DNA from: Lota lota
Taxonomy: Eukaryota; Chordata; Actinopteri; Gadiformes; Lotidae
Assembly: GCA_026745465.1 (NCBI GenBank)
Contig: JACYXH010000088.1
Location: forward strand, 25,001 to 89,000
Direction of reading: 5' to 3'
Length of the DNA: 64,000 nt
A program made the position numbers and the translations under genes. Under the pieces are notes generated by a model. It made no database searches. It worked only from the letters and a program-made list of their open reading frames with translations, and had not been told where the DNA came from. Positions within the stretch are counted from its first letter, which is position 1; every line of letters starts with the position of its first letter. Below are positions 2,900-60,195 of the stretch, piece by piece.

Positions 2900-4620
2900 G
2901 AGAAAGAAAAAGCCTTAAAAGGATTGTTGCACTTTTTCTCGTCACTGCCTTTGCGGGCTCTTTGGGACACCATTGACGGGCCGAACGGGACCTGCGGCCT
3001 GAATAAGGCCCTTCGGATCGACTGTTTTTTGTCGTTTTATTTATTGTTTTAATCTATTGCTGAATATAGGAACACACGCCTTCAAACTATAAATGACGGT
3101 TACGTAGTCCTAAAGGCTATATAGTTAGGAGTTTTAACACCTTCAGGCTATTCCGCAAGACTGGGGCTTTAGTGTTATACTTGTCATTGCTTTTTAATTG
3201 TTGATAGGCTATTAGTTAGACCTACGCTGGACAGAGCCTATGAGTCTCGTATTATAGGCCTAACCCTAAATAATAAGTCCTAATAGGCCTACTGTAGGAT
3301 GCGGCTATGCACTTTATTAACCTGCCCGTCCGGCAGCTGAGAGGAGGCCTCAGCTCTTGGTCCCAAACGGCCCTCCCGTTCCTCAATCACTAAAGTGTAG
3401 AAGTGAGGGCCTATAGTCTAGGACGCAAAGAGATCATGTTTGTTCTGAGCAATAATTTGCTAATCATGTTTTGTAGCTCTAAAGGCTACAAGTAAACACT
3501 GGGTTGGGAAAGCTGTTGAGAATGAGCCTACTCAAATGATCACTTTAAAAAATATATAAAGATATGGTGAATACAAAAATACAGCCTATAACGAATATAG
3601 GCTAGTTCTGTGAATAACCATAGGCCTATTTTTGTTTGATCAAAATAGGGTTTCATATCGAAATATAGGCCCATCAACCCTAAAAGGACGGTTGTAATAT
3701 CCTCATTCGTCTCAATGAATTGTTAAATAAATTGTACAAAATATATTATTCAGGCAATAGGCCAGTTATTTATTAAACATCTATATTTGGTGGCCAAGAT
3801 GCGTTGTAATGTGAATATTTCTTACAAAACCAAACATGAGATACGCCCCTTGTGAATGCAAGTCTTCCTTATCACTTAACGCCAGACAATCACCACAAAT
3901 ATTACATTTAAACCTCGAAGCACAAGTTTAGTCTCGCATGCGCAAGACCCATTTATTGCACCATGTTTGATGTCTCATATAGACCTAAGCTATAAGTAGG
4001 CCTACAATTACCGTTTGTGTGAGGGGTAATCGGTTGTCCTATATACCAATAAAAAACAGTGAAATGTGAATTTGTGCAAATAAATAAATATTTTAATATT
4101 TTTTTTGTTTCAATGTTATGCCAAATGCACGTAGGCCTACTAGATAAGTTCCATTTATGAAAATGTTTTAGTTTAAAGATGGGCTAAAGAAACATTCAAA
4201 TAATATATTGGATTCCTGTTTCAATCATTAACATTTGGTTAATCAAGAACTTAAAAAATAATTGTAGGCCTAGGTCATCTGCATGCAAAGTAAAACAGAT
4301 TGGATTAGGCCTTTAAACCTGTTGACTATGTGTGTTAAAGCATACAGGTTTGTAATGTAGGCCTACTTACATGCCTTATTTTTATAGGTCATATAGTTTG
4401 ATTGCACATTTTACTTTCATTTTCAAGAGCAATTTAGAGTATCAGGATTATAAACAAGTTGTAAACCGTAATTTGGAACAATAGTCCAATGTTTCTGATA
4501 CCGTTTTGGTCCACATTAAATATTAATCTGTTCTTCAGGCCTAACAAACTGTACTTTACCTTTTTTCATTTCAAATTTATTCCAGATGCAAAGCTTTCAA
4601 TAAAATCCAGGTTGATCATT
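2900..4620 (+). other. Probable cdkn2a/b 3' UTR and downstream region
   Basis: No reading frame of note was seen. AATAAA signals occur at 3726-3731 and 4599-4604. The stretch is AT-rich and unusually full of the word TAGGCCTA (see findings). If the distal signal is used, the 3' UTR is about 1.7 kb. Confidence 0.4.
3255..4365. repeat. Dispersed cluster of the palindromic 8-mer TAGGCCTA
   Basis: Exact copies begin at 3255, 3284, 3621, 3998, 4132, 4265 and 4358. Many near copies such as ATAGGCTA, TAGGCCCA and TAGACCTA lie between them. Spacing is irregular, so this is not a tandem array. Confidence 0.8.
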
Positions 4621-28181: not shown

Positions 28182-28945
28182 CTTATAAGAAGATACTTAC
28201 TTTCTGTATATTCACCCTGAACCCTACAATGACACCATGGAGGACACCCCCTTGTCGCACAAACAAGCCAACGAAGATGTTGCAGAAGAAAATGCGAACT
28301 AGGTAAGGGACGTTAAATTAATAGAGCGCCATCTATTGAGAAGGAGTGGCTTTCAACCTTTTAATACATATTTGGAAAAAATACTATTTGTTGTAACCTC
28401 GTAACATTAACGTTTCATTTGTTTAATGAATGAAAATGTCTAATGGCTTGGAGTAACATAAAAAAGGAATTATCACATGGTTTAATAAACATAAATACCT
28501 AAATAGAAAATTACAATTCATAAACAATGTCAAAGAAATTAAATGAATAAAGTTGAAACATTTTTAATAAAATATGAGTTAAATATAATAAAATGAAACA
28601 ATGTTAAACAAAACAAATCTTTGGTTTCAATCGATGTTGAATAAAAGTACAATTAAAGAAAAAAAGTAAATGTTACCAAGTTTATTAAAATTAAATAATG
28701 TTAAATAACAAAGGTGTCCATGTAAGCTGTCATTGGTAAGTGTCCATATTAGATGTATATGGTTGGTGTTCATATTAGACGTCCATGGTTGGGGTCCAAA
28801 GTTGTGGAAGATGTCCATGGTTGGTCTCCCTGATTGGCGTATATGTTAGGTTTCCAAATAAGATGTTGATGTTTGGTGTCCCAGTCTATGTACATTTTAG
28901 GTTTCCAAAGATGCATGTTGGTTCTCATTATGTTAGGTTTCATTC
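28182..28945. other. Spacer between ndufb6 and the unrecognised gene
   Basis: AT-rich DNA without a gene. A degenerate repeat at about 28725-28930 uses variants of CATGGTTGGTGTCCATATTA. A minus-strand AATAAA lies at 28681-28686 and may serve the upstream gene. Confidence 0.45.
28725..28930. repeat. Degenerate short-unit repeat in the unknown gene's 3' UTR
   Basis: Repeated variants of a GTCCATGGTTGG / TTAGGTTTCCAAA theme with irregular spacing, just below the stop codon at 28946. Confidence 0.5.
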
Positions 28946-31900
28946 TCAGTTCTTCTTGCGGCTGAAGAGCCGGCGAAGCCAAGAGAAGCACTTATTTTTG
29001 GTTTTTACTTCTTTCAGCTCAGGCTCCTGAGCAAAAAGTTTTTCAGCACAGAAAAGGTGTATTAGCACATCTCATTCTACAGCGACAATAGAGTATATAA
29101 ATACATATTACTATGTGTAGCATTATTGGGTGATATAAGAGATGTAGATATAAAACTTAACACTTTTAAATAAATAAATAATTTGTAAAGCTTGATAAAA
29201 AAGGAATGACGCTAATATAGACCAGTAATTATTACTCTTACTAAATATCTTTGTGTATCATGTCTGTACTGAAATGACTGATGAAGAAGGCTGACCTTCT
29301 CTGGGCAGGCGAGGAACTCCTCCCTGCTCACTTTGCGCTCCTTGTGAAGACGCTCCTCTAGCAGGGTGAGAGGTCTTTCCTTGTCTCCTTCCTCCTGCTT
29401 CCTCACAGGGACGTTAATGCTATAGGGGGCATTGTCTCCTCCCTGGACCTCCTCACTGAAGCTCACAGAGGGCTTGATGTGGTTGAGCACCTCTTTTGCT
29501 ACAAGGGAGCAGGCCAGCAGGGCTACCTGGGGGTCCTGCATGAGGCCCTCCCTGGTCAGCCATGTGTTGGGCAAGGCCACGTTCAACTTCTGTCTAAGGG
29601 GCCACCGAAGCTCAACGGCCAGTTTGACCTGTTGAATGACTTCAACTGTCATTTCTCTATGAAAACTAAATAACTGAAAGTCGTCTTCATAAAAAATGCA
29701 CTGTGTTATACATTATTTTACATCATGTTGTAAATGCTTCATATATTATTTTCTTTGGACAGTGATTCACAATTGCCGGCCTTCATTTGATGAGGAAAAC
29801 TGCATGTTTACAATACATTGATTGCTTTAGAGGCATTCTCTATTTTGAAACATGCTATTCCAGTTTAAATACAATTTAAAAAAGAAAGTCATGATATTAT
29901 AACACTACAAAAACGTAAAGCAGACCTCCTGCACGGGGTCCATCAGGCGCTCCAGAGTCTGTTTGAACACTCTGTTGTTCCTGTATGTCTCGGCCTCCTT
30001 CTCCAGCAGCAGGTGGACATGTTCCACTATCTCCTTCTCAAAGGCCCAGTATTTGCGGGCCTGTGACTGGTAAAAGGTTTGGTCCTGGCCTCTGAACAGT
30101 TCTTCTACAACCCGTTCAGCAGTTGACTGCTGGATCAGAACTGTGTCCTGTTGCACAGGGGAAGAGAATGCTTCGCCTGTCTAAAAAGTAGCTACAGAGT
30201 TTTTAAATGGACTGGACTCTCATGTTGGAGGACGATTTCAGTGTTGAACACTTGAAGTCTATGTGAATGTGTTTTCATGAACGTACGGAGGTTGAGAAAG
30301 AGTTCATAGCAGCAGCAGCAGCAGTAGTAGTAGCATTGTATCCTGGCAGTGGCTGAGCTGCTGGAGGTAGTAGGGCTCCAGAAAGCACAGGATCACAGAC
30401 AAGAAAACTCTGGCCAGAGCCTTGTAGAGAAGAAGGCTCAGATTCTGTCAGACCCTGGAGCAGCTTCTGGCTGTTCTGGAAGTCCCTCTGGAGGGCTTCA
30501 CCGCTACCGTCCACCACAAAAGCATTGTAAGCCAGGGTGACGTTGTCCAACGATGAGGTCACTTCCTCGTAGTCATCTCCAACAAAGTACTTTCCTTCGA
30601 CCCAGGTGGTGTAGGAGGAATGGCGTCGGATGACTATGCGGCGGTAATCCGCGATGACATCATCGCTCATTTCCGGAAGAGCCTTGCGGTAGATCTTCGT
30701 GTGCCGAATCCAGGTTCCAAACTTCTGGAAAATTGGATCCCTTCCTGTCTCAGGGAGCGTCTGGCTAAAGAGCCACCTCTCCATTAGGTCCTCATCCACC
30801 CTGGGAGCTGAGAGCAGAACAAGAACAGGGGGGTGAAAGAAAGGTGTGATCATAAAGAAACAATTGGATGAACCTCAACAGGTTGTTTAGGACTCGAATG
30901 GAAGGGAATTTCACTAGATCACTGAAATGGAATTATGATGGCAAGCAATAAAGAAATATATGTTCTACAATATTGTGAAGGCTTGTTATGCTTCAATTAT
31001 ATTAGCAAAACACTGTTGGTATTCAAGTTTATAAGCAACACATTGTACAGGTTTTTACAGTCTCTGTGGTTACCCTCGGTGCGGACAGGGGTTCCCTCGG
31101 TGCAGACTGCCTGGTGCTTAGCCAGAACAACCTCGATGACCTCCCTGGGGATGGAGCGGAGGAGATCAGGGTTTCCCGCAGACATCAGTTTCTTGACCTT
31201 GAATAAGAGAGAAGACGTCTTAATGGAGGAGAGTTGTGGACAATAGCGCATCACGTATCCTGTTCAGAGCTTCAGAGCTTTCAGTGTTGTATGGAGGACT
31301 TTCACTTTCCCCTAACGGAGCGGCCCTGAATGGAAAGCAATCCTACCTGGTAAAAGGTGCCAAAGGCCTTCATCAGGCGGCTCTGGACCTGGAAGGTAAG
31401 TCTCCTTAAATCCCAGCTGGGACGAGGGAGAGCGGTGTCTACCGTCACACCGGGCATCTTCCTAAGGGTCTCCAATGTCAGAGCACTCAGCTAGGAGAAA
31501 GGGAGGAGGAAGAAAGTAAGGAGGGAGCAAGAGTGAGAGAGATGAACCATGAATGTGGGGGAAAAAAGAGTCGGAGGCAACGAAAGAACAGCCAGGGATG
31601 TGAGATGCAGACAACGATTTTTGACATTAATTACTTCATTAGGTTCAATTATATCAATGATGATTGGCATTAGCAGTGACGTAGTACTAGTTGGGTACGA
31701 CTGGTAGTAGTACTGCTAGTAGTGCAGTAGTATGACCAGAACCTACCTGGAGAGTGAGGGCCAGGAGCTTCTGCTGGTCCAGCTGCCTGTAGCCGTCCCC
31801 GTCGAGGGGGTGGAGCTTCAGGATGAGCTGGACCAGCAGGTCGTCTACCAGGTCACTGCTCACAGTCAGCATAGAGCCTGGAGGGAGGCACCGCACTGCC

Positions 31901-33666
31901 CACACAACCTTCTGGAGAGAAGAGATTCATGGGAATTTATGCTTGTGTTTAGACCCCATGAGCTTCAATCCCACCCGTATGATTGAAAAATACAAAACTC
32001 AACTTGTAATTTGTATCTGTTTTCAACACATTGAAACAGATTATTTTTCCTATTCCTTGTTAGAAAATAATTTTACGGTTTCTATATAGGTAACTGTGTA
32101 TATGTATGTATTTATGTATGCAAGTATTTACAAGTCATAATATTTAGAGAAATGTAAACTGTATAGAAACATGAGCGGCACTTTACAAACAACTTTGAAA
32201 TAAAATTGAACCCAATTCATTCAATTCATTGAATTAAATCATGTTTTTGAGCCTCTGTCGCTGACCTGCATGTCCTCCTGAGTAGCTTGCAGCTGGTGTG
32301 GGACCAGCAGGGCTACACTCACAGCCACCAGATAGCACATGTAGTGGTTGAGGACGTGTGGAGCCGTGACCAGAGCCCCCGCCAGCCGGTCTCTGGGGAG
32401 CAACACCTGCTCCAGGTGGGCCAGTATGGACTCGGCCGCCTAAACAATGGACACAAGACACACACATACACATGTTGGCACTGGGAGTTCATATCTTAGT
32501 GTTATGCCATTATGTCATTTCTCATGGTGTAAGTGCTTGGGTCGCGCTCGTTTATTTAGTTTGTGGTATTACATTTTTGTTGAACAAACCAGCAATTATA
32601 TATAATAATTCAATACAACAATTGAAATAAAATAAAGTAAAAAACAGACCTGGCAAGGAGTGGTGGGCTGGAGCAGACAGTTAGCCTGCTGCCGGTCCTC
32701 CGTCACCCTGACCCAGGGGAAGGAGGAGGCGAGGAGGCGCTGGGTCTCCTGGAAGATGATGCTGATCTTCTCAGGGGTCCCAGGTGGGGGGTACCCAGGG
32801 CTGACCTGGAGAGCACAACACCAGTACACACAAGAAGTCAACCATGAGCTTCAGAAGCTAATGCAGAGGACTTCTGGGATCATCTTGATGTAAGGTAAGT
32901 GTGAACAATCATCTGAGCCGCAATTCTCTGGTTGCATCTCAAAGTAAAAGTCTAATCACATAATTCAGTGCTAGTGTTGTTGCAAATAGTAACGCAGACT
33001 TCTACGTATTTCATGACTGTGGATGCATGTCCTATGTCATTGCAATGGGCCTTATTCATCTTGCAGCTATCTTACTCGCTAGCTGGGTAGGGGAACTGAA
33101 TGTGGCATTCTGCATTCAGTTTCCCCACCCAGCTAGCGTTTACAACCAATATGGAACCAAGATGGCCACTAGATGAATAAGGCCCATAGTGGTCTGTTGT
33201 GAGGACAGTACTGGTCCTTGTGAGGGACATATTCAATTACAACAGGGCTATACCTGAGTCAGCAGCTGGACGATGACCTCTTTGAGGGAGGGGCCAGGGA
33301 CCACCACCTGCCAGGGCGTGGCCGAGACAGGGGTGGAGCTGGCAGCCGTCTCAACCTCAGAGGACGTCTGGGTGGAGCCAGAGTCCAGGGGGTGTCCAAG
33401 AGGGCCTGAAGACCAACCACATTTAGAAAGATTATTTCCTCCACTCTTTGTCTAGATGTATTGATGTTGCTGATGGTTATGCTTACTTAGCATCACATTT
33501 GTATTTTCTTTCTTTCTCTCAGATAAATATAAGGATTCCTCTTACTTCACTGCCTCTGTGAGGGCTTATGGTGAGGCTGATTAGTTGCAAATTATGATCA
33601 GTTAATAATCCCAAACATACCTTTGCAGGGTCTTGGAGTAGGTGGTGTTTCAGGAATGCAATGCAT
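28946..33666 (-). CDS. Unrecognised 11-exon protein-coding gene (731 aa)
   Basis: Exons in gene order are 33621-33666, 33254-33405, 32650-32805, 32266-32439, 31747-31911, 31347-31490, 31074-31197, 30287-30807, 29926-30180, 29296-29673 and 28946-29026. Every border is GT/AG, and the two split codons (exons 1/2 and 7/8) rejoin correctly, giving one open frame of 731 aa. It starts MHCIPETPPTPRPCKG and ends SWLRRLFSRKKN. No signal peptide or membrane segment is evident. Most of it looks helical and leucine-rich (VDDLLVQLILKLHPLDGD; QSRLMKAFGTFYQVKKLMSA). The middle is rich in W, Y and charge (FGTWIRHTKIYRKALPEMSD). A TTTAAAAA run near the end of exon 8 is encoded by a GCA/TAG triplet repeat. The C-terminal part is charged (TLLEERLHKERKVSREEF). 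I recognise no family and assign no function. The initiator in exon 1 is the least certain part. Confidence 0.8.
30305..30336. repeat. Coding triplet repeat (GCA then GTA)
   Basis: A GCA run followed by GTA units inside exon 8 of the unknown gene, encoding Thr/Ala on the minus strand. Confidence 0.7.
33045..33187. mobile_element. Palindromic MITE-like element in intron 2 of the unknown gene
   Basis: Outer inverted repeats ATGGGCCTTATTCATCT (33045-33061) and its exact complement (33171-33187) enclose inner arms (33077-33102 and 33113-33138) matching at about 24 of 26 positions. It has no coding capacity. Confidence 0.75.
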
Positions 33667-34079
33667 GTTGAAAAGCAGCAGCCAAACAACTCAGAGAGCA
33701 GTGATTAACACAACGTACTATCACGAAAGACCAGGTAAACTGATAAAGGGGAGAGTACAGCACAGTGACTCTAAAGCATCTAAATTCCATCGCTGTCCAT
33801 TGTGTGTTATGACACCACAACAGAGAGATTGGTGGGGGTGTGGGGTGGACAATTAAAATCAAATACTGTCACTTTATTGGTCAGAGTGTTGTGATTGACA
33901 TGGTTCCACTGTAACTATAGTGACAGTGATGCACATTATAAACTTGTACAGCTATCAATCTACCTGGCTAGCCTATCCCCTTCCATTTGAAGGTTGTTGA
34001 TTAATTTAGTTACCGAAACTTCGAATTTTAAAAAGTAACTCCAAGATATTTACAAAAACAGTTCCGCGTGTGAAGGCGG

Positions 34080-34973: not shown

Positions 34974-37900
34974 ATGGTCAAGTACTTTTCAAGCGACACG
35001 GACATCCAGAATACCTGGGAACAAGTTGTCTCTGCATTCTGGCGGAGATACCCAAATCCATTCAGGTACAGCCACTCACCCTGTTTTGGTTTTTAGTGTG
35101 AATTGTAACTCACTGGTTGTAAAGGTCTGTATTTCCTTGTGTAGTGGAAATAATACCAACGATGCCAGTTGGATTATCAGACTTTGCTTACAATTTTACT
35201 TTTGGACGTTAATGTTCTCGTTATTTACACGACTAGGCTGATCCAAAACAAAAATCATGTACCTGATATTTTATAGGGTTGTGTATTTTTGATTGAACTG
35301 GTCAATCTGACCGTATTTAAAAAAAATAACGGCACTTATTAGAAACAGAACTGAAATTGAGCTGTGGTCTTCTGGCTTCCTGGCTCATTTGCCTGCGGTG
35401 TCTGTCATTTGGGCTATGTCCTCCCTTTTTGCACCTATTTCACACATAACTTTATAGGGTGTATACTGTACTGTATAGCAACATGAGCCACACAACAGCT
35501 ATGAAATCATTATGACTCCAATAAAAGCCATTTAATTCAATGCTATCATATTTGTGAGCCTCTGTGGCTGACCTGCATGTTCTCCTGAGTAGGTTGCAGT
35601 TTAGGTTTCTTCCCTTGGTTAGGTTTCTTTCCTTGGATTTGAGTTAGCCTTGCCTTTTTAAATACTGTCATGTTTACCAGTTAAACCTGAAAAACAGTAT
35701 CATGTGAAGACATAAACGTCAAATATAACACAACTCAAGACCAAATACTAGAGGTCTTACAACCGTTCTGCCCTTATAAAATAGCTGGTATTATCTTCAC
35801 AACAAAAGGAGCAATGAGGCCCCTTGGAGACAGCCACTGTGATTAAAATGCCATACAAATCAAATATACTGATGCGTATACTTATGTGTCCGTGTGTCCG
35901 GCAGCACTCATGTGCTCACGGAGGACGTGGTCTACAGGGAGGTCACCGCGGACCACCGGCTCCTCTCCAGACGCCTCCTCACCAAGACCAACCGCCTGCC
36001 GCGCTGGGCCGAGAAGGTGTTCCCCACCAACTTGGCCCGCTCTGTCTACATCGTGGAGGACTCCATCGTGGATCCGGTGGCCAAGAGCTTGACCACCTTC
36101 ACCTGGAACCTCAACCACACCACGCTCATGGTCAGTGCCTGCCTCCGCCTGACGTCTTTTTAACGAAGGCCGAAAAAAAACACCTGTTTTCTGTTTGTGT
36201 TATGTGGATAATGTTTTGTGTCTCACAAATTGACAGGTTAGTTATTTAGCAGACGCTTTTATGCGTAGTGAGTGAATTAGGATGCATGACTTTAAAGAGC
36301 AGGTAGGGCTTTGGAATCTTTCTTAAGGAACCCTGCAGATAGGCTAAGGATACTGGGGATCAAATCCAGTGTCTTTGGCCTGCTATTCACTACGCTATTT
36401 TGCCCTGCACCCCCATATTTTTACTTCAATAATTATAAGTCTGCATTTGTGTCAAATATCACTAACCCATGTCACAAATTCAGGCCACATGGAAATGTGG
36501 CCTTTTCGATATTCCAAATCGGACTAATCCAAAAAAAGATCCTAATCCTAATTTGTATGTACATGAGACTACTTGCACTTTATTTAAATCGGTTAGCATA
36601 CAACATCCTTTTGTGAACATTGAGGAAACCGAAGCCCCCCACTTCTCTATCCATGCACCTGCTGTATAGATAGGTCAAAGGTTTATATTATACAAACCGA
36701 GGTTCTGTCAATTGGTGTTTGACTCCTGGGCTAAACAAGCAGTGTGGGACTGTATGCAAACAATATGTAAATCGTTTGTCTGTGGCTAAACTCACCCAAC
36801 AGCTGGAAACACAGCCAGATAGGTAGGCCATTCACTGTACAGGCCCTCCAGTCTGTGTTTCTCTAAACGGACAAAGCTTTTGAACCTCAGTCTCATATTG
36901 TATTCCAATATTGCATTTTCTACTGATATGATGGTGGCTAGGGATCTAACTCAGTAAGTTTGAGTTCGATCCAAGGTCAACAGCCTACTTGTACAGATGT
37001 CTAACCCCTACTTGATTCTAAAAGACATGAATCTGAATTCATCATAAAAAGCAGGTTTCTTTGGCTAAGTGTTGGTTAAATAAATGTGTACAAAATAAAA
37101 TTATACATGATTCTACATGTTCTAAAGACAAGATTGACATGATCATTCTCTAAGCAAAGCTATGTTTCCCACTAAGCACGTAACTGGGAGAATATCTAAA
37201 AAATATAAACTTAATGTACCAAATCTAGACTCATCTGCTCAGAAGTAACTTGACTCCGTCTGTTTTGATGATAAATTCTTCCTCTAGGGTTAGTGGATGA
37301 CAGTGGTTAGTCAACCCTGTCAACCCTTGGACATGAAGTGAAAAACTGCTTAAACATTCAGTCAACAAATCTTTGAAGCAGACTGTATACATGTTGAAGT
37401 TTTTACCCCCTAAACTAACCTAAACTTGAACCATCTTTACATTCTCAGGCTGTGGAGGAGCGGTGTGTGTTTAAAGAGTCGGCCTATCAGCCAGCATCCA
37501 CCAGTATAAAACGGGAGGCATGGATCTCCTCCAGTGTGTACGGCTTCTCAAGGCCCATTCAGGTACTTCATGTAGGGTCTGACTCAATGTTATGCATGAT
37601 GGGGGTCAATGCAATGGACAATATGAATCGATGCAATGTAGGATAGTAATAAATACGATGTGTTAAATTAATGAATGCAATTCATGATATGAGTTGATGC
37701 AAGATGTTGACAGTAGATGTTGAAAGTATAATCAGTGTGATGGATTCAGATGGTCTTTATGATTAATTTGGCTGAGACCGACAAATTGGTCAATACCAAA
37801 GACTTTCAGTTGGTATAGTATTGACAAAATTAGCGTCAGCCAACTTTCACAAAGCAGACTGCAAAACACTTGGTCGATTGAGATTGGCCCATTATGTTGG

Positions 37901-53639: not shown

Positions 53640-55272
53640 TAACGCTCCCCCGGTTTGATTTGTTTTAGGGGTGGGGGGTGGAAGGGCGTTGGCCATCCAG
53701 GGAATGAAAGACCCTCTCACTAGCCTTCTCTGTAGCTTTTAGAGGTCAACCTGTTGCTGACCAATTCCTCTCCCTCTCTCTCCTCTCTCTCTCTCTCCCT
53801 CCCTCCATCACACCCTCTCTCTCTCTCTGGATCATAACAGTATCTTTCAGCATGTTTCTGGTTTAATTATAGCTACAGAAAGACCAGACCACTTTAATCA
53901 ACAAGGAAAATGAGTAAAAACAAACATGCAGCCAGCGTACCTCTCGCAGGTGCTGGCTGGGACGATCTAAAGCAGGGCGTGTGAAAGTTACTCCAGTGGT
54001 CTCATTCCCACCTCTCCCAGGGGGATAACACCCCCCCCCCCCCTCCTTCTTCACCCAGCCAACAAAAACACAGGCTCAGTCTGCTGGAGAACAAGTGTCT
54101 TCAGAGGAGGACAGGGGCTGGAGTGGGGGAGGGGGGTGGGTGGGTGATGGGGGGGCACACCTCCAACCTGCCCTGGGTCCCAGCCCACATGAAGTGGTTG
54201 GAGGTGAGCCAGGGGAAGTGGACAGGAAGGAGGTGGGGGTCTGTGCGCTGGGGAGGAGGGAGGGGGAGAGGGGATCGGGGTGGGGGCTGTTTTGCTTTTT
54301 TTCCTCTTCTTTTTTGGGGTTGGAAGCAGGGTCTGGTGTTGTGGAGGACTGGGTGCAGAAAGGCTTCTTTGAGGCTGAGTGTGCTCAGCTGCACTGGGCT
54401 GGGCTCTGAGCAGATCATCCCAGGGTCATTTGAGCCAATAGGCAACCAACTTGCAACCTCTCTCTCTCTTTCTCTCTCTCTAACTCTCGCTCTCTCAGTC
54501 TCCCACACTCTTTCTCTCTGTTTCTCTCACACTCACTCTATGTCTCACTTTTTCCTTCTCTCACTCACCCCCCTCCCACTCACTCTTTCTCACTCTCTCT
54601 CTCATTCCCTCTCTGGCAGTGAAAAGCAAAAACAAGGCGTTGCTCAAAGTACTCTGCTTGACTTTAGAGAATACTTCATAATTGTATAAATCAAAGTATC
54701 ATAAGTAGAGGCCAGGGTAGCTAGCTGGTCCCAGAGAGAATCAAACAAAAAACGAAATGTAAAGCAGTCAGACTGTAGGTCCACCATATAACTTGTATGA
54801 TCGGTTGAAGTCAACTGAATTCTGCTTGTTAACGTTTAACCTTATAGGTCTTTTTTTCACCAACTTTACCTGTTTAGCTAGGGCAACCTGTCAATCCATG
54901 TCAAACTTTAGTGCAATGTTCACTGTCAATCTACATCAAACTTAAGTGCAGCTTTAACTATCTCAAATTATGTAGATCTAGCCCAAAGTTGCAAAGTAAA
55001 GAACATTTCTTCTCACAAAGATACAAAACAGTTCTGGGCAGAGCTCCTGCGACCCACATACCCAAATGAGTGACACTATGCTAGGCATCCCACACCGCCG
55101 TCCGACGGGGAACTTCCATCCACGCCTCCCACATACTTCATGGAACACAGTGCACGTCAATGAGACTACACCTGCTGGTCTTCTGTCCCGCTGAGCAATT
55201 TACTCTGCTCTCCCCGACTCTCTGCTAGCCTTGAAAGCTCCCTGCCTGAGCATGTGCCGCTCGGGCCACGGG

Positions 55273-55306
<34 letters not shown>

Positions 55307-55422
55307 ACACACAAACACACACACTCACACACATACATACTAGCACACACACACACACATACACACACACACACACACACCCACACCCGCACACATACAC
55401 ACACACACATACACACACACAT

Positions 55423-55462
<40 letters not shown>

Positions 55463-55579
55463 ACACACACACACACACAAACAAATGCACAGAATCACAC
55501 ACATATGCACACATGCAAACATACACACACATGCACACACATACACAAACACAAACACACACACACGTATACATACACA
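55273..55579. repeat. Compound (CA)n array, about 300 bp
   Basis: CA repeats interrupted by AAACACACTC, TACATAC and ATGCACA variants. Very long HTHTHT or VCVCVC frames here are not genes. Confidence 0.95.
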
Positions 55580-56216
55580 CGCATTGTTTTTTTCCAGCAG
55601 ACTTGGAGCCGGACGGACCCTGCCCTACCCCACTTCTGTTATTCGTGAGCCAGACTCTGGTCACGCTATGTTTATCAGATCCGTCTTCAAAACAGTCAGG
55701 CATGCACAGGGCTGGATCTGCTGTCTGCATCTACCAAACAAAACTCTTTGGTTGTAATGGTTTGGCTTGGGTGGAACACTCCAACATAAAGAATTTAGTG
55801 AATTTGAGAGTTGAAAGGGATTTTCGTTATCGCTAAAGTCGCGTCAAGAGGAATGCAGACACGGTTGCAGCAGAGAGATATGGTGCAGTATACAAGTGTC
55901 ACAGACCCACATATCTGTGAAGGAAGGCACCAGTACCGTTGATTCCATTCAACCCTATGATAATATGCAAAAAATGAGTTTAGGACGGCTCAACACACAG
56001 TGGTTAGTGATAGGACGAATGCATATCTGCGTAATAAATCACTGGAGCCTAAAGGCTATGTCCAGTTAGGGGATGAGGAAGTGTTTTCTACAGGGGCCAA
56101 GAAGAAAACAAGCACCTGATCGCTCTCACATGCCACGTACTCCCACTCTCACACACACAGACACACACACAGTTTGTTTCTACTCTCTGCCAACCCCCCA
56201 CAAGGCCCCACAAGGC

Positions 56217-56400
56217 CCTCACCTCCAGCCCCACTCATAACCTCACCTCCACCCCCATTCATAACCTCACCCCGACCCCCAGCCCTACCCATAACCTCAC
56301 CCTCATCCCCCGCCCCACCAATAACCTCACCTCCACCCCCATTCATAACCTCACCCCCACCCCTAGCACCACCCATTTCCTCACCCTCCACCTCCCTCCT
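56217..56400. repeat. C-rich minisatellite with CATAACCTCACC units
   Basis: About six units of roughly 24-36 bp share CATAACCTCACC followed by a variable C-rich spacer. Confidence 0.8.
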
Positions 56401-56967
56401 CCCACTCCCACTCTGTGAGGGGGGGCTCGCTGCCAACACAAAGTATGTGGAGTTGAGCTTCTGGCTACAAGCTGTATATACCTCTAGATGTTCAGAACAG
56501 CTTCCACCCTGGTTTGTTCCATTTCAATCCAATAACCGTTTCATTGAAATCATAATGGTAATTTATTTCTGTCGTACAACATTTGATTTTGTGAGTGATG
56601 TAATGTTTGTGCATGTCATTTTTTTTTTCTCTTGATCTGATAATGATCGCACATGAGTTTGCAGTGGAGGATAGGAGCAAACAGAGGGTGACCGGACTTT
56701 GTGTTAACCTCAGCCATCCTTTCATCCGTTCATAAGGCATCACCCCAATGACAGGCCCACGACACCGTTACCGTCAGAAACGCCACCTTACAGCCCTCAT
56801 TGTGAGGGAGCATACAGTGTAAACACTGGGCCCTCATCACTCTCTATAATGTCTCTCTCTTTATCTCTCTTTAGCCCTCTCTTTCTCACTCTCACTCTCT
56901 CTCTCTAGAGCTCTCTCTGCTGCTCTGTGTGTGTGTGTCTCTCTCTCTGCTGATCTGTGTGTCTCTC

Positions 56968-57004
<37 letters not shown>

Positions 57005-57420
57005 TGCTCTGTGTGTGCGTCTCTCTCTACCTCTTTCTCTACTCTCTACTCGCTCCTGTTTGCATCGTTTTTTCGGCCAAGATCACGTCAGGACCCATCA
57101 AAAGAGACCAAACCAAACCACTCAAGCCATTCAGATATATTGCCCTTCTATGCAGCCATGGTATCTTGCTTAGTAAGTTCAGGCTAAAACAACTAAAACA
57201 TTAAAACACCACCTTGCTGTCACTAGTTATTCAGTCACTACTTGTGCCAGTGAAGTGATTCAAGTGAAGCAATTCATTGAATGTAATTACTTAATTACAA
57301 TCTAATATTTATTTTTAGAACGATATATGAACAACGTTCATATATTTTGTAATGCAAAGTTATGGTTATATTACGTGCTAAACAGCTTATTGGGTATTAT
57401 TCATTTCACGTGACAAGGGC

Positions 57421-57520
57421 TAGTGTTCAGGAGGGGAGGGAGGAGTAGGGAGGGAGGAGGAGGAGGAAGAGAGGGGGGAGGAGAGGGAGGGGGAGGAGAA
57501 GAGAGGGGGGGGAAGGTTTG
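57421..57520. repeat. G/GA-rich low-complexity tract
   Basis: Runs of GGGAGGAGG and GGGGGG, with strong purine bias on the + strand. Confidence 0.85.
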
Positions 57521-58089
57521 GGGTCTGTGTTGCGTGAGAGGAGCATTAGGTAGGAATCTGAGCCTCCCAGTGACTCTACATCTGGTTGGCAGGCTCCTGG
57601 AGCCAGGGTGGGGTGGGTGGGAGGGAGGTTGAGGGGTCCATGATACATTCACGCCCACAACAGCTATGTCCATGCACACAACAACTACATGCACACAATA
57701 ACTACGTGCACACAAGCACGGGCTGTCAGCACTGCCCAACGGCACTGTTTAAATTTAACCAGGATGACCCAAGTTACTCCAGGACATTGAACACACTGAG
57801 AGACAGAGAGGGCAGATACACGATGAGAGAGAGAGGGAAAGAGGGGGCAGGGGATTACATATGATAGTAAATCTGTCAATCCTCCTCTGGAGATGAAGCT
57901 TGTTTTCTGTCAGCGGCCGGGCCACACCCCCGGACGACAGCTTGTGTGCTGTGACAACTACAGAGACGACAGGGCACTGAGTACTGATAAACACATACAC
58001 ACACAAACACAAACGCACACACATATCATCCCGGCTGCAGCGAAGGACTCCGTCTCACATGACTCCTGCTTTCACACGCGAGCTGCAAG

Positions 58090-58290
58090 CCGACACCAAA
58101 CTGAACCACACAGCACAGCACAACACACACAGAGCGACACAACACAAAGCAAGATAACATAGACAGAACAACACAAGACAACACAACTCAATAAAGCACA
58201 ACACAACTCGACATGACCCGGCATGACTCAACACAATTTGAAACAATATGACACAACACAACACACTCAACCCAACTCGAAACAACACAA
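58090..58290. repeat. Degenerate ACACAAC-type repeat
   Basis: Irregular 5-10-bp units such as CACAACACA, ACACAACTCG and GACACAACAC, nearly lacking T-rich content. Confidence 0.7.
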
Positions 58291-59394
58291 AATAAATGAA
58301 CACAAATGCCCCCAGGAAAGCTAAGACTGTTAGCTTGTTTCAGCAGACTGAAACCCCAAACAAAACAACAATTAGAAAAAAACAGAACTGCATATCACGT
58401 GCCAGACTGTCATATCAAGCGACTTGTTGTTTACACATTAGTAGTAGTATTTCCACACACATGCCTGGGAATTCTCTTGTATAATTACACTAGATTTAAC
58501 GTGAGCAAAACAGCAACTAATCCCAGAGTAAAAATAAGCAAGGCTTATTACGACAGCCTTTCCCTCTGACACCGCCAGACTGTGTCATGTGAGAAACAGA
58601 TGTTGAACGCAATAAAAAAAAAAGAGCAGGGAATGTGTGAGCAAATAGAGGGGGGATTTACAAGAGGTTTCCCTGGTGGAAATGTATACTACTGTGTGCA
58701 TCGTTTTGTCGAGCAAGGCAAAACATTCTCGCCAAATGCTTAACGCATAACTGTGTACGTTACATGTACATTTGAATAACGGTTGGGTTTATGAAAAATA
58801 AAAACTGAACCGAAAAAGACACACCTCCAGAACTGGATGGACTGTTTCAGACAAGTTTGGTAAGTAATGTATAGTCAGGTTTTCACCCTCTGATGAGGAC
58901 AGGGTAAAAATAGGACAGTTCTAGTCTGACACAGTGTTTGTCAATGATTAACATGCTGTAAACTGCTGCCCCGCACGTAATCAGTCCTGTCAGCTGCTGC
59001 TGTTCTAAGCATTTGTTTATTAAGGAAATGTATTTAGTTGTATTTTTTTAAACAAATAAACCAAAAAGAGATATGTAAGGGAAATATAACAGCACTGAAT
59101 AAAATAATTTGTATGTATAGGAACAGCTATCAAAACAAAACAAAAAAGTCACAAAGCAATAATATTCTTACTTAATGATGATACTTAATGCCAAAAGAAA
59201 ACGGTATTATTATTTGTAATAAGCCTGAGCGTGGTAGTGTTTGAGCTATCTCAGGTCGCCTCTCTCTACACGGCCTTCTGAGCGGTCTGTTACTTAACTC
59301 AACATTCCAGCATATGTCTGCTCTGCTGACCTGGTTTTCAGGCTGCCTTGTTCAACTCACTGCACATACTGTAGCAACCATACTACAAAACCTG

Positions 59395-59790
59395 GTCCTT
59401 TACAACGACACTGCCATCTCCTAGCCAACCACAACCTGTGCACAACTGTACATGCACGTACATGTCCTACACAGCCATCTCCTATACATCTACATAACCA
59501 TGTCCTACACAGCTACACCATCATCTATACATGACCGGTCCTACACAACTACATTATCCTCTCCTAAACACAACCTGTCCAGCTACACAACTACACTACC
59601 ACGTGCCACACAACCACACAACTATGCTCTACACAACTTCACAACAATCTCCTATTCACAGCCATTCTACACCACCATAACCTATTTCACAGCCATATCA
59701 TACTCAACGTAAGACCATCTCCTACACAACTCCACACAACCATCGCCTACACAACTACAGTTCTACATAATCGTGTCCTACACAGTCCTC
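59395..59790. repeat. Degenerate minisatellite with CTACACAAC / CATCTCCTA units
   Basis: About 400 bp of imperfect 15-30-bp units combining ACAACTACAC, CCATCTCCTA and CCTACACAAC. Confidence 0.75.
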
Positions 59791-60195
59791 TTTCTGCCCC
59801 ACCCACCTGCTGTTGCATCAGATTTGTCCTCCTCCCCCTCATCCTCATCCTCCTCCTCCTCCTATATTGACTTGTCTTACTTAGGTCAGGTCTCTCCTTC
59901 TTTCCCCGTCTTTCTCATTCTCTTAATCAATTATTATATATAATGGATTCTAAATGTGGAATGTTGTGTTTTTCTTTTCTCTTGCTCATCTCTTGTTCTC
60001 TTCTTCCAAATTAACCGTGAGTCATGTTTGTTTCGTGTACTTGGTGAAATTCACTTCCTGAATCTACACCGCCATATGCATAAATTGGTTTATGACCCGA
60101 GACGGCAAACCACAATGCACACACGATCCTTTTGAGATGTGTGTCTACTATGTGCCCTATAGCTAGTCCAACATGCTTCCACACTTAAACACACA

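Follow-up and report, generated by a model that had tools for sequence, protein, structure and literature searches.

A spliced gene of Lota lota and its dispersed intron-bearing copies, many of them broken

A stretch of 64,000 nucleotides from the Lota lota genome (hereafter the window) contains, between positions 28,946 and 33,666, a long split reading frame that had been placed in no protein family, raising the question of whether it is a working gene, what it is related to, and what its product might do. We consider it very probable that this is an intact spliced gene under purifying selection, one member of a dispersed, intron-bearing family in which many copies are broken and which evolves by birth and death. 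What the protein does can be proposed with far less assurance.

Gene model and searches for a known family

Joining the exons on the minus strand gave an 11-exon gene running from an ATG at 33666 to a stop codon ending at 28946, in which all 10 introns are GT...AG, the frame is open through to the stop, and split codons occur only at the exon 1/2 and exon 7/8 junctions, where both rejoin. The first-pass annotation had described a complete 11-exon gene of 731 aa, and its exon number, strand, splice sites, rejoined codons and open frame all hold, while its length does not, being instead 705 or 716 aa according to which of two candidate acceptors begins exon 9 (30147 or 30180, respectively). Because the pyrimidine-rich tract and AACAG preceding 30147 recur in two copies elsewhere in the genome (L005 and L006, the latter at C479:12.05M), we preferred 30147 and the 705-aa product. 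Four of the 10 donors (exons 3, 4, 9 and 10) begin with the less usual GTC, and the same four are GTC in L006. A candidate poly(A) signal (AATAAA, 28681..28686, minus strand) lies ~260 nt past the stop codon, a pattern match that carries little weight given 149 such matches across the AT-rich window.

All exons lie on the minus strand, and counterparts of them were found in various other copies. Exon 1 (33621..33666) holds the start codon and a GT donor, with MHCI and RPC kept in L006. Flanked by AG and GT are exon 2 (33254..33405; homologous in L006 and L007), exon 3 (32650..32805; L005, L006, C249 at 5.17M and C376 at 795k), exon 4 (32266..32439; L005, L006 and L007), exon 6 (31347..31490; L005, L006 and C473), exon 7 (31074..31197; C473, and a shorter homologue in L006) and exon 10 (29296..29628; L006, C473, C91 and C47). 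Exon 5 (31747..31911) is among the most conserved (SSDLVDDLLVQL), with 71% identity to L006 and further homologues in C473 and both C376 copies, whereas exon 8 (30287..30807) is fast-evolving and gapped, with 43% identity to L006. Exon 9 spans 29926..30147 (alternative 5' end 30180), and exon 11 (28946..29026) encodes the stop and the amphipathic C-terminal tail (SWLRRLFSRKKN), whose basic character was already recognised at first pass and whose WLRRLF core is kept in L006.

Searching for relatives upheld the view that the gene belongs to no recognised family, with no credible match in Pfam, NCBIfam or PDB sequences. The window protein matched no Pfam family at E <= 10, the spliced protein no NCBIfam family, and neither full-length single-sequence nor two-member profile searches matched a PDB sequence; pieces of copies C473 and C91 likewise matched no Pfam family at E <= 10. 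Three matches look like chance: L006 to the Pfam family TraI_2_C (E 0.2), and one PDB match each for the C473 piece and window exons 3-6, to the unrelated ornithine transcarbamoylase (E 1.2) and OppD (E 1). Two short peptide patterns, a probe of limited sensitivity, picked out 52 stretches in viral contigs and 39 in prokaryote genomes, among which 0 were confirmed as relatives in either collection. Comparing exons 2 to 11 with one another revealed no repeats at z > 3 other than a 6-residue exon 2/exon 11 match, and scanning the window for Rfam families and tRNAs gave no match. Within the part of the literature covered, no title names this gene, which may nevertheless be in print. If orthologues exist, the gene would mark a gap in protein family libraries, a selected vertebrate protein of 700 residues without a profile.

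An absence of matches could also arise if the protein came from a known helical family but had diverged too far for profile HMMs to recognise it, and this is possible, if unlikely. Candidate families of this kind include the exocyst Sec6-like/TNFAIP2 proteins and the A-kinase-anchoring sperm proteins AKAP3/4 or FSIP2. Leucine-rich amphipathic segments and fast evolution are both consistent with such an origin, and an anchoring-helix pattern fits the window protein in 5 places (against a mean of 1.48 in 2000 shuffles, a fraction 0.0285 of which reached 5) and L006 in 4 (mean 1.34, fraction 0.063), with one of these matches being the conserved exon-5 segment. The pattern is loose, however, and many leucine-rich helices would fit it, so we did not assign the protein to the A-kinase anchoring proteins; it shares amphipathic leucine-rich segments with these and FSIP2 but, unlike them, has no Pfam match, and the Pfam and PDB searches gave chance-level matches at most. 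The earlier description of the protein as mostly helical found no support in a crude propensity scan, which returned 34% helix, 21% strand and 45% neither.

Copies across the genome

Searching the 575 Mb assembly (867 contigs), we found that the gene is far from alone. The 716-aa query returned at least 64 matches at E <= 10, of which 11 are the window gene itself, and the L006 protein returned at least 71 at E <= 1, its own and the window exons included. Sorted by hand according to position, these matches place parts of the gene outside the window at a minimum of 20 loci, spread over 16 contigs, each reaching E <= 0.001 in one or both searches: C473, C91, C479 (12.05M and 11.89M), C376 (795k and 729k), C278, C249 (5.17M and 4.58M), C47, C420, C182, C115, C802, C216, C429, C772, C135 (126k and 478k) and C659 (11.15M), with C216 and C659 (11.15M) represented by single weak pieces each. 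Left out of the count were C659:12.2M, C685, C479:14.5M and C91:1.42M, where the best E exceeded 0.01. The first-pass reading of the locus, as a genuine gene outside any recognised family, stands; to it must be added what it had omitted, a dispersed multicopy family that is mostly broken where examined.

How these copies arose is suggested by their structure. Exons in other copies (L006, C473, L005 and others) are collinear with those of the window gene; in L005 and L006 the exons stand apart with introns between them, and L006 has kept its introns. DNA similarity with L006 spans introns 4 and 5 and reaches ~270 bp upstream of the ATG, where a block (TTGTGRTGTCAYAACACACAATG, 33798..33820, minus strand) is also present in both L005 and L006. 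Because introns are kept in the copies examined, with upstream sequence in L005 and L006 besides, we take these copies to be DNA duplicates and rule out a family of retrocopies. L006 resembles the window gene in its intron phases and C-terminal tail, and differs from it in protein sequence (54% identity) and in having part of exon 10 duplicated.

Evaluating the surroundings, we found the window gene's neighbours to be as first annotated, with NDUF_B6 on the same strand (Pfam E 9.9e-25) and PRELI divergent from it (E 5.7e-29). The flanks of L005, L006 and L007 show no DNA match to these neighbouring genes. An origin by whole-genome duplication is unsupported, with no recognised neighbour common to the copies among the neighbours listed (AAA ATPase, RING and Ras-like, protein kinase). 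Dispersal together with introns could instead mean that the gene is a passenger of a mobile element, or one of its coding genes, and the spread over so many loci and contigs, the differing neighbours of the three copies with examined flanks, and a stray gene piece beside the window gene would all fit this. The piece is a 75.7% copy of window 32158-32292 (intron 4 and the end of exon 4) and lies at 35470..35599 on the plus strand, between two prelid1 exons. We nevertheless regard a mobile element as very unlikely: the gene's own product, as distinct from its flanks, contains no Pfam domain, no common terminal repeat is apparent in the aligned ends of the window copy, L005 and L006, and the two pairs of loci that share a contig, separated by ~66 kb and ~162 kb and oppositely oriented, fit ordinary segmental duplication as well.

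Condition of the copies and selection on the open one

To describe the condition of individual copies we used base-level inspection, several broken copies being judged on ~3 to 5 kb of sequence only. Stop counts in the search matches were discarded because the window gene's own matches also show stops where they run into introns. Eight of the nine other copies so judged are broken: L005 (stops and frame breaks), L007 (a stop in exon 4), C473 (exons 2-4 absent between exon 1 and exon 5), C91 (exon 9 absent, and a stop), C376 at 795k and C47 (a stop in each), C278 (frame breaks) and C479 at 11.89M (35-bp and 7-bp deletions in exons 8 and 9). L006 is the sole open one, joining into 659 aa over 12 exons, the extra exon being the duplicated part of exon 10; it has lost the ancestral exon-2 acceptor (CAG to CAT), and an AG further on preserves the frame. 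C376 at 729k and C249 at 5.17M, with few exons in the part examined, and the remaining 9 loci, represented by their search matches, lie outside this tally. Among the copies examined, the window gene is the best preserved. Among the loci represented by search matches, C135:477803-479886 shows pieces in collinear order that are more divergent (29-47% identity), along with an open frame of 227 aa; one piece is flagged for a stop, and going by these matches the locus is possibly another intact family member. Exon 9 of the broken copy L005 is the site of an expanded minisatellite with ACCCCCGACCAGCGCCTGTGG-like units (~2950-3260).

Such a proportion of broken copies raises the prospect that the whole family is dead and the window copy merely open, a non-functional relic decaying like the rest, and the loss of the ancestral acceptor in the ninth copy, L006, points the same way. 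Against this, the window copy keeps an open frame of 705 codons at a distance from L006 of dS ~0.59, and in neutral simulations of the coding sequence none of 2000 replicates stayed stop-free at 0.2 substitutions per site and none of 2000 at 0.3. Codon-model maximum likelihood against L006 gave omega 0.433 over 632 codons (omega = 1 rejected, 2dlnL 48.0) and 0.392 over 457 conservative codons (omega = 1 rejected, 2dlnL 40.7), and against C473 gave 0.27 over 246 codons (omega = 1 rejected, 2dlnL 42.5), values well below 1, though each pairwise omega also spans the time before the partner copy died, such that the C473 value in part reflects old constraint. We accordingly judge a wholly dead family to be highly improbable. 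Purifying selection on the protein is supported by the pairwise omega of 0.27 to 0.43.

Simple counting between the window gene and L006 (dS 0.59) gave dN/dS 0.57, ranging by exon from 0.35 (exon 5) to 1.07 (exon 2). For exon 11, which encodes the tail, the ratio was 0.895 over 26 codons, and because this is near 1 constraint on the tail is not established. Identity to L006 was 61-85% across exons 1-10 and 52-60% across introns 1-9. As placed by the aligner, the gaps in the exon DNA alignments are not all multiples of three (exons 2, 8 and 10), which we read as ambiguous placement plus a shifted exon end, and we did not use gaps as evidence.

Some lineage-restricted animal gene families evolve by birth and death, and the window gene resembles that general kind in being fast-changing and multicopy, with broken copies and no homologue outside the family in the collections searched; no specific named family was matched. 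The many broken copies would allow study of how intron-bearing genes disperse and die.

Protein features, a possible role and local sequence

The window protein is 12.5% leucine with a net charge of -6 and has a basic, Cys-containing tail. From these features we propose that the ~705-aa product may act as a cytosolic adaptor with no recognisable enzyme domain. Partner proteins would be bound through its leucine-rich amphipathic segments, chiefly the strongly conserved exon-5 segment. Reach would come from a disordered N terminus and the variable exon-8 linker, and attachment to a membrane surface from the basic, amphipathic C-terminal tail with its Cys (KCFSWLRRLFSRKKN). Ranked by hydrophobic moment, NKCFSWLRRLF is one of the window protein's top 12 stretches, whereas the L006 tail falls outside the top 12 of the L006 protein, and this, together with the tail-exon dN/dS of ~0.9, weakens the membrane-adaptor proposal. 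A membrane-tethered cytosolic adaptor is thus a doubtful reading of the product, and the explanation as a whole, of a selected gene in a birth-and-death family that encodes such an adaptor, is one that we hold tentatively.

An immune or reproductive role would fit the rapid change and loss of copies, as a guess, and if a role in defence or the germline were true the fast turnover would have a reason. A bolder version would make the gene the intact founder of a fish protein family not yet described, one whose helical fold is new; the product would be an anchoring protein tethered to membranes, and whole intron-bearing copies would spread and die quickly, as expected in genetic conflict (immune or germline). 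This we consider improbable.

Several local sequence features were also recorded. Intron 2 contains a palindromic MITE-like element (33045-33187), which L005 8649-8782 matches in both orientations. Past the stop codon lies a degenerate 26-bp tandem repeat (28714-28798; GTGTCCATATTAGACGT...), and similar repeats, of AACATGGACGTCT type, come after the L006 stop and after the end of L005. Elsewhere in the window, GC skew is negative over positions 54001-60000 (-0.12 to -0.27), and the first half of this segment carries AC-rich and CCCCAC-type tandem repeats (55273-57055).
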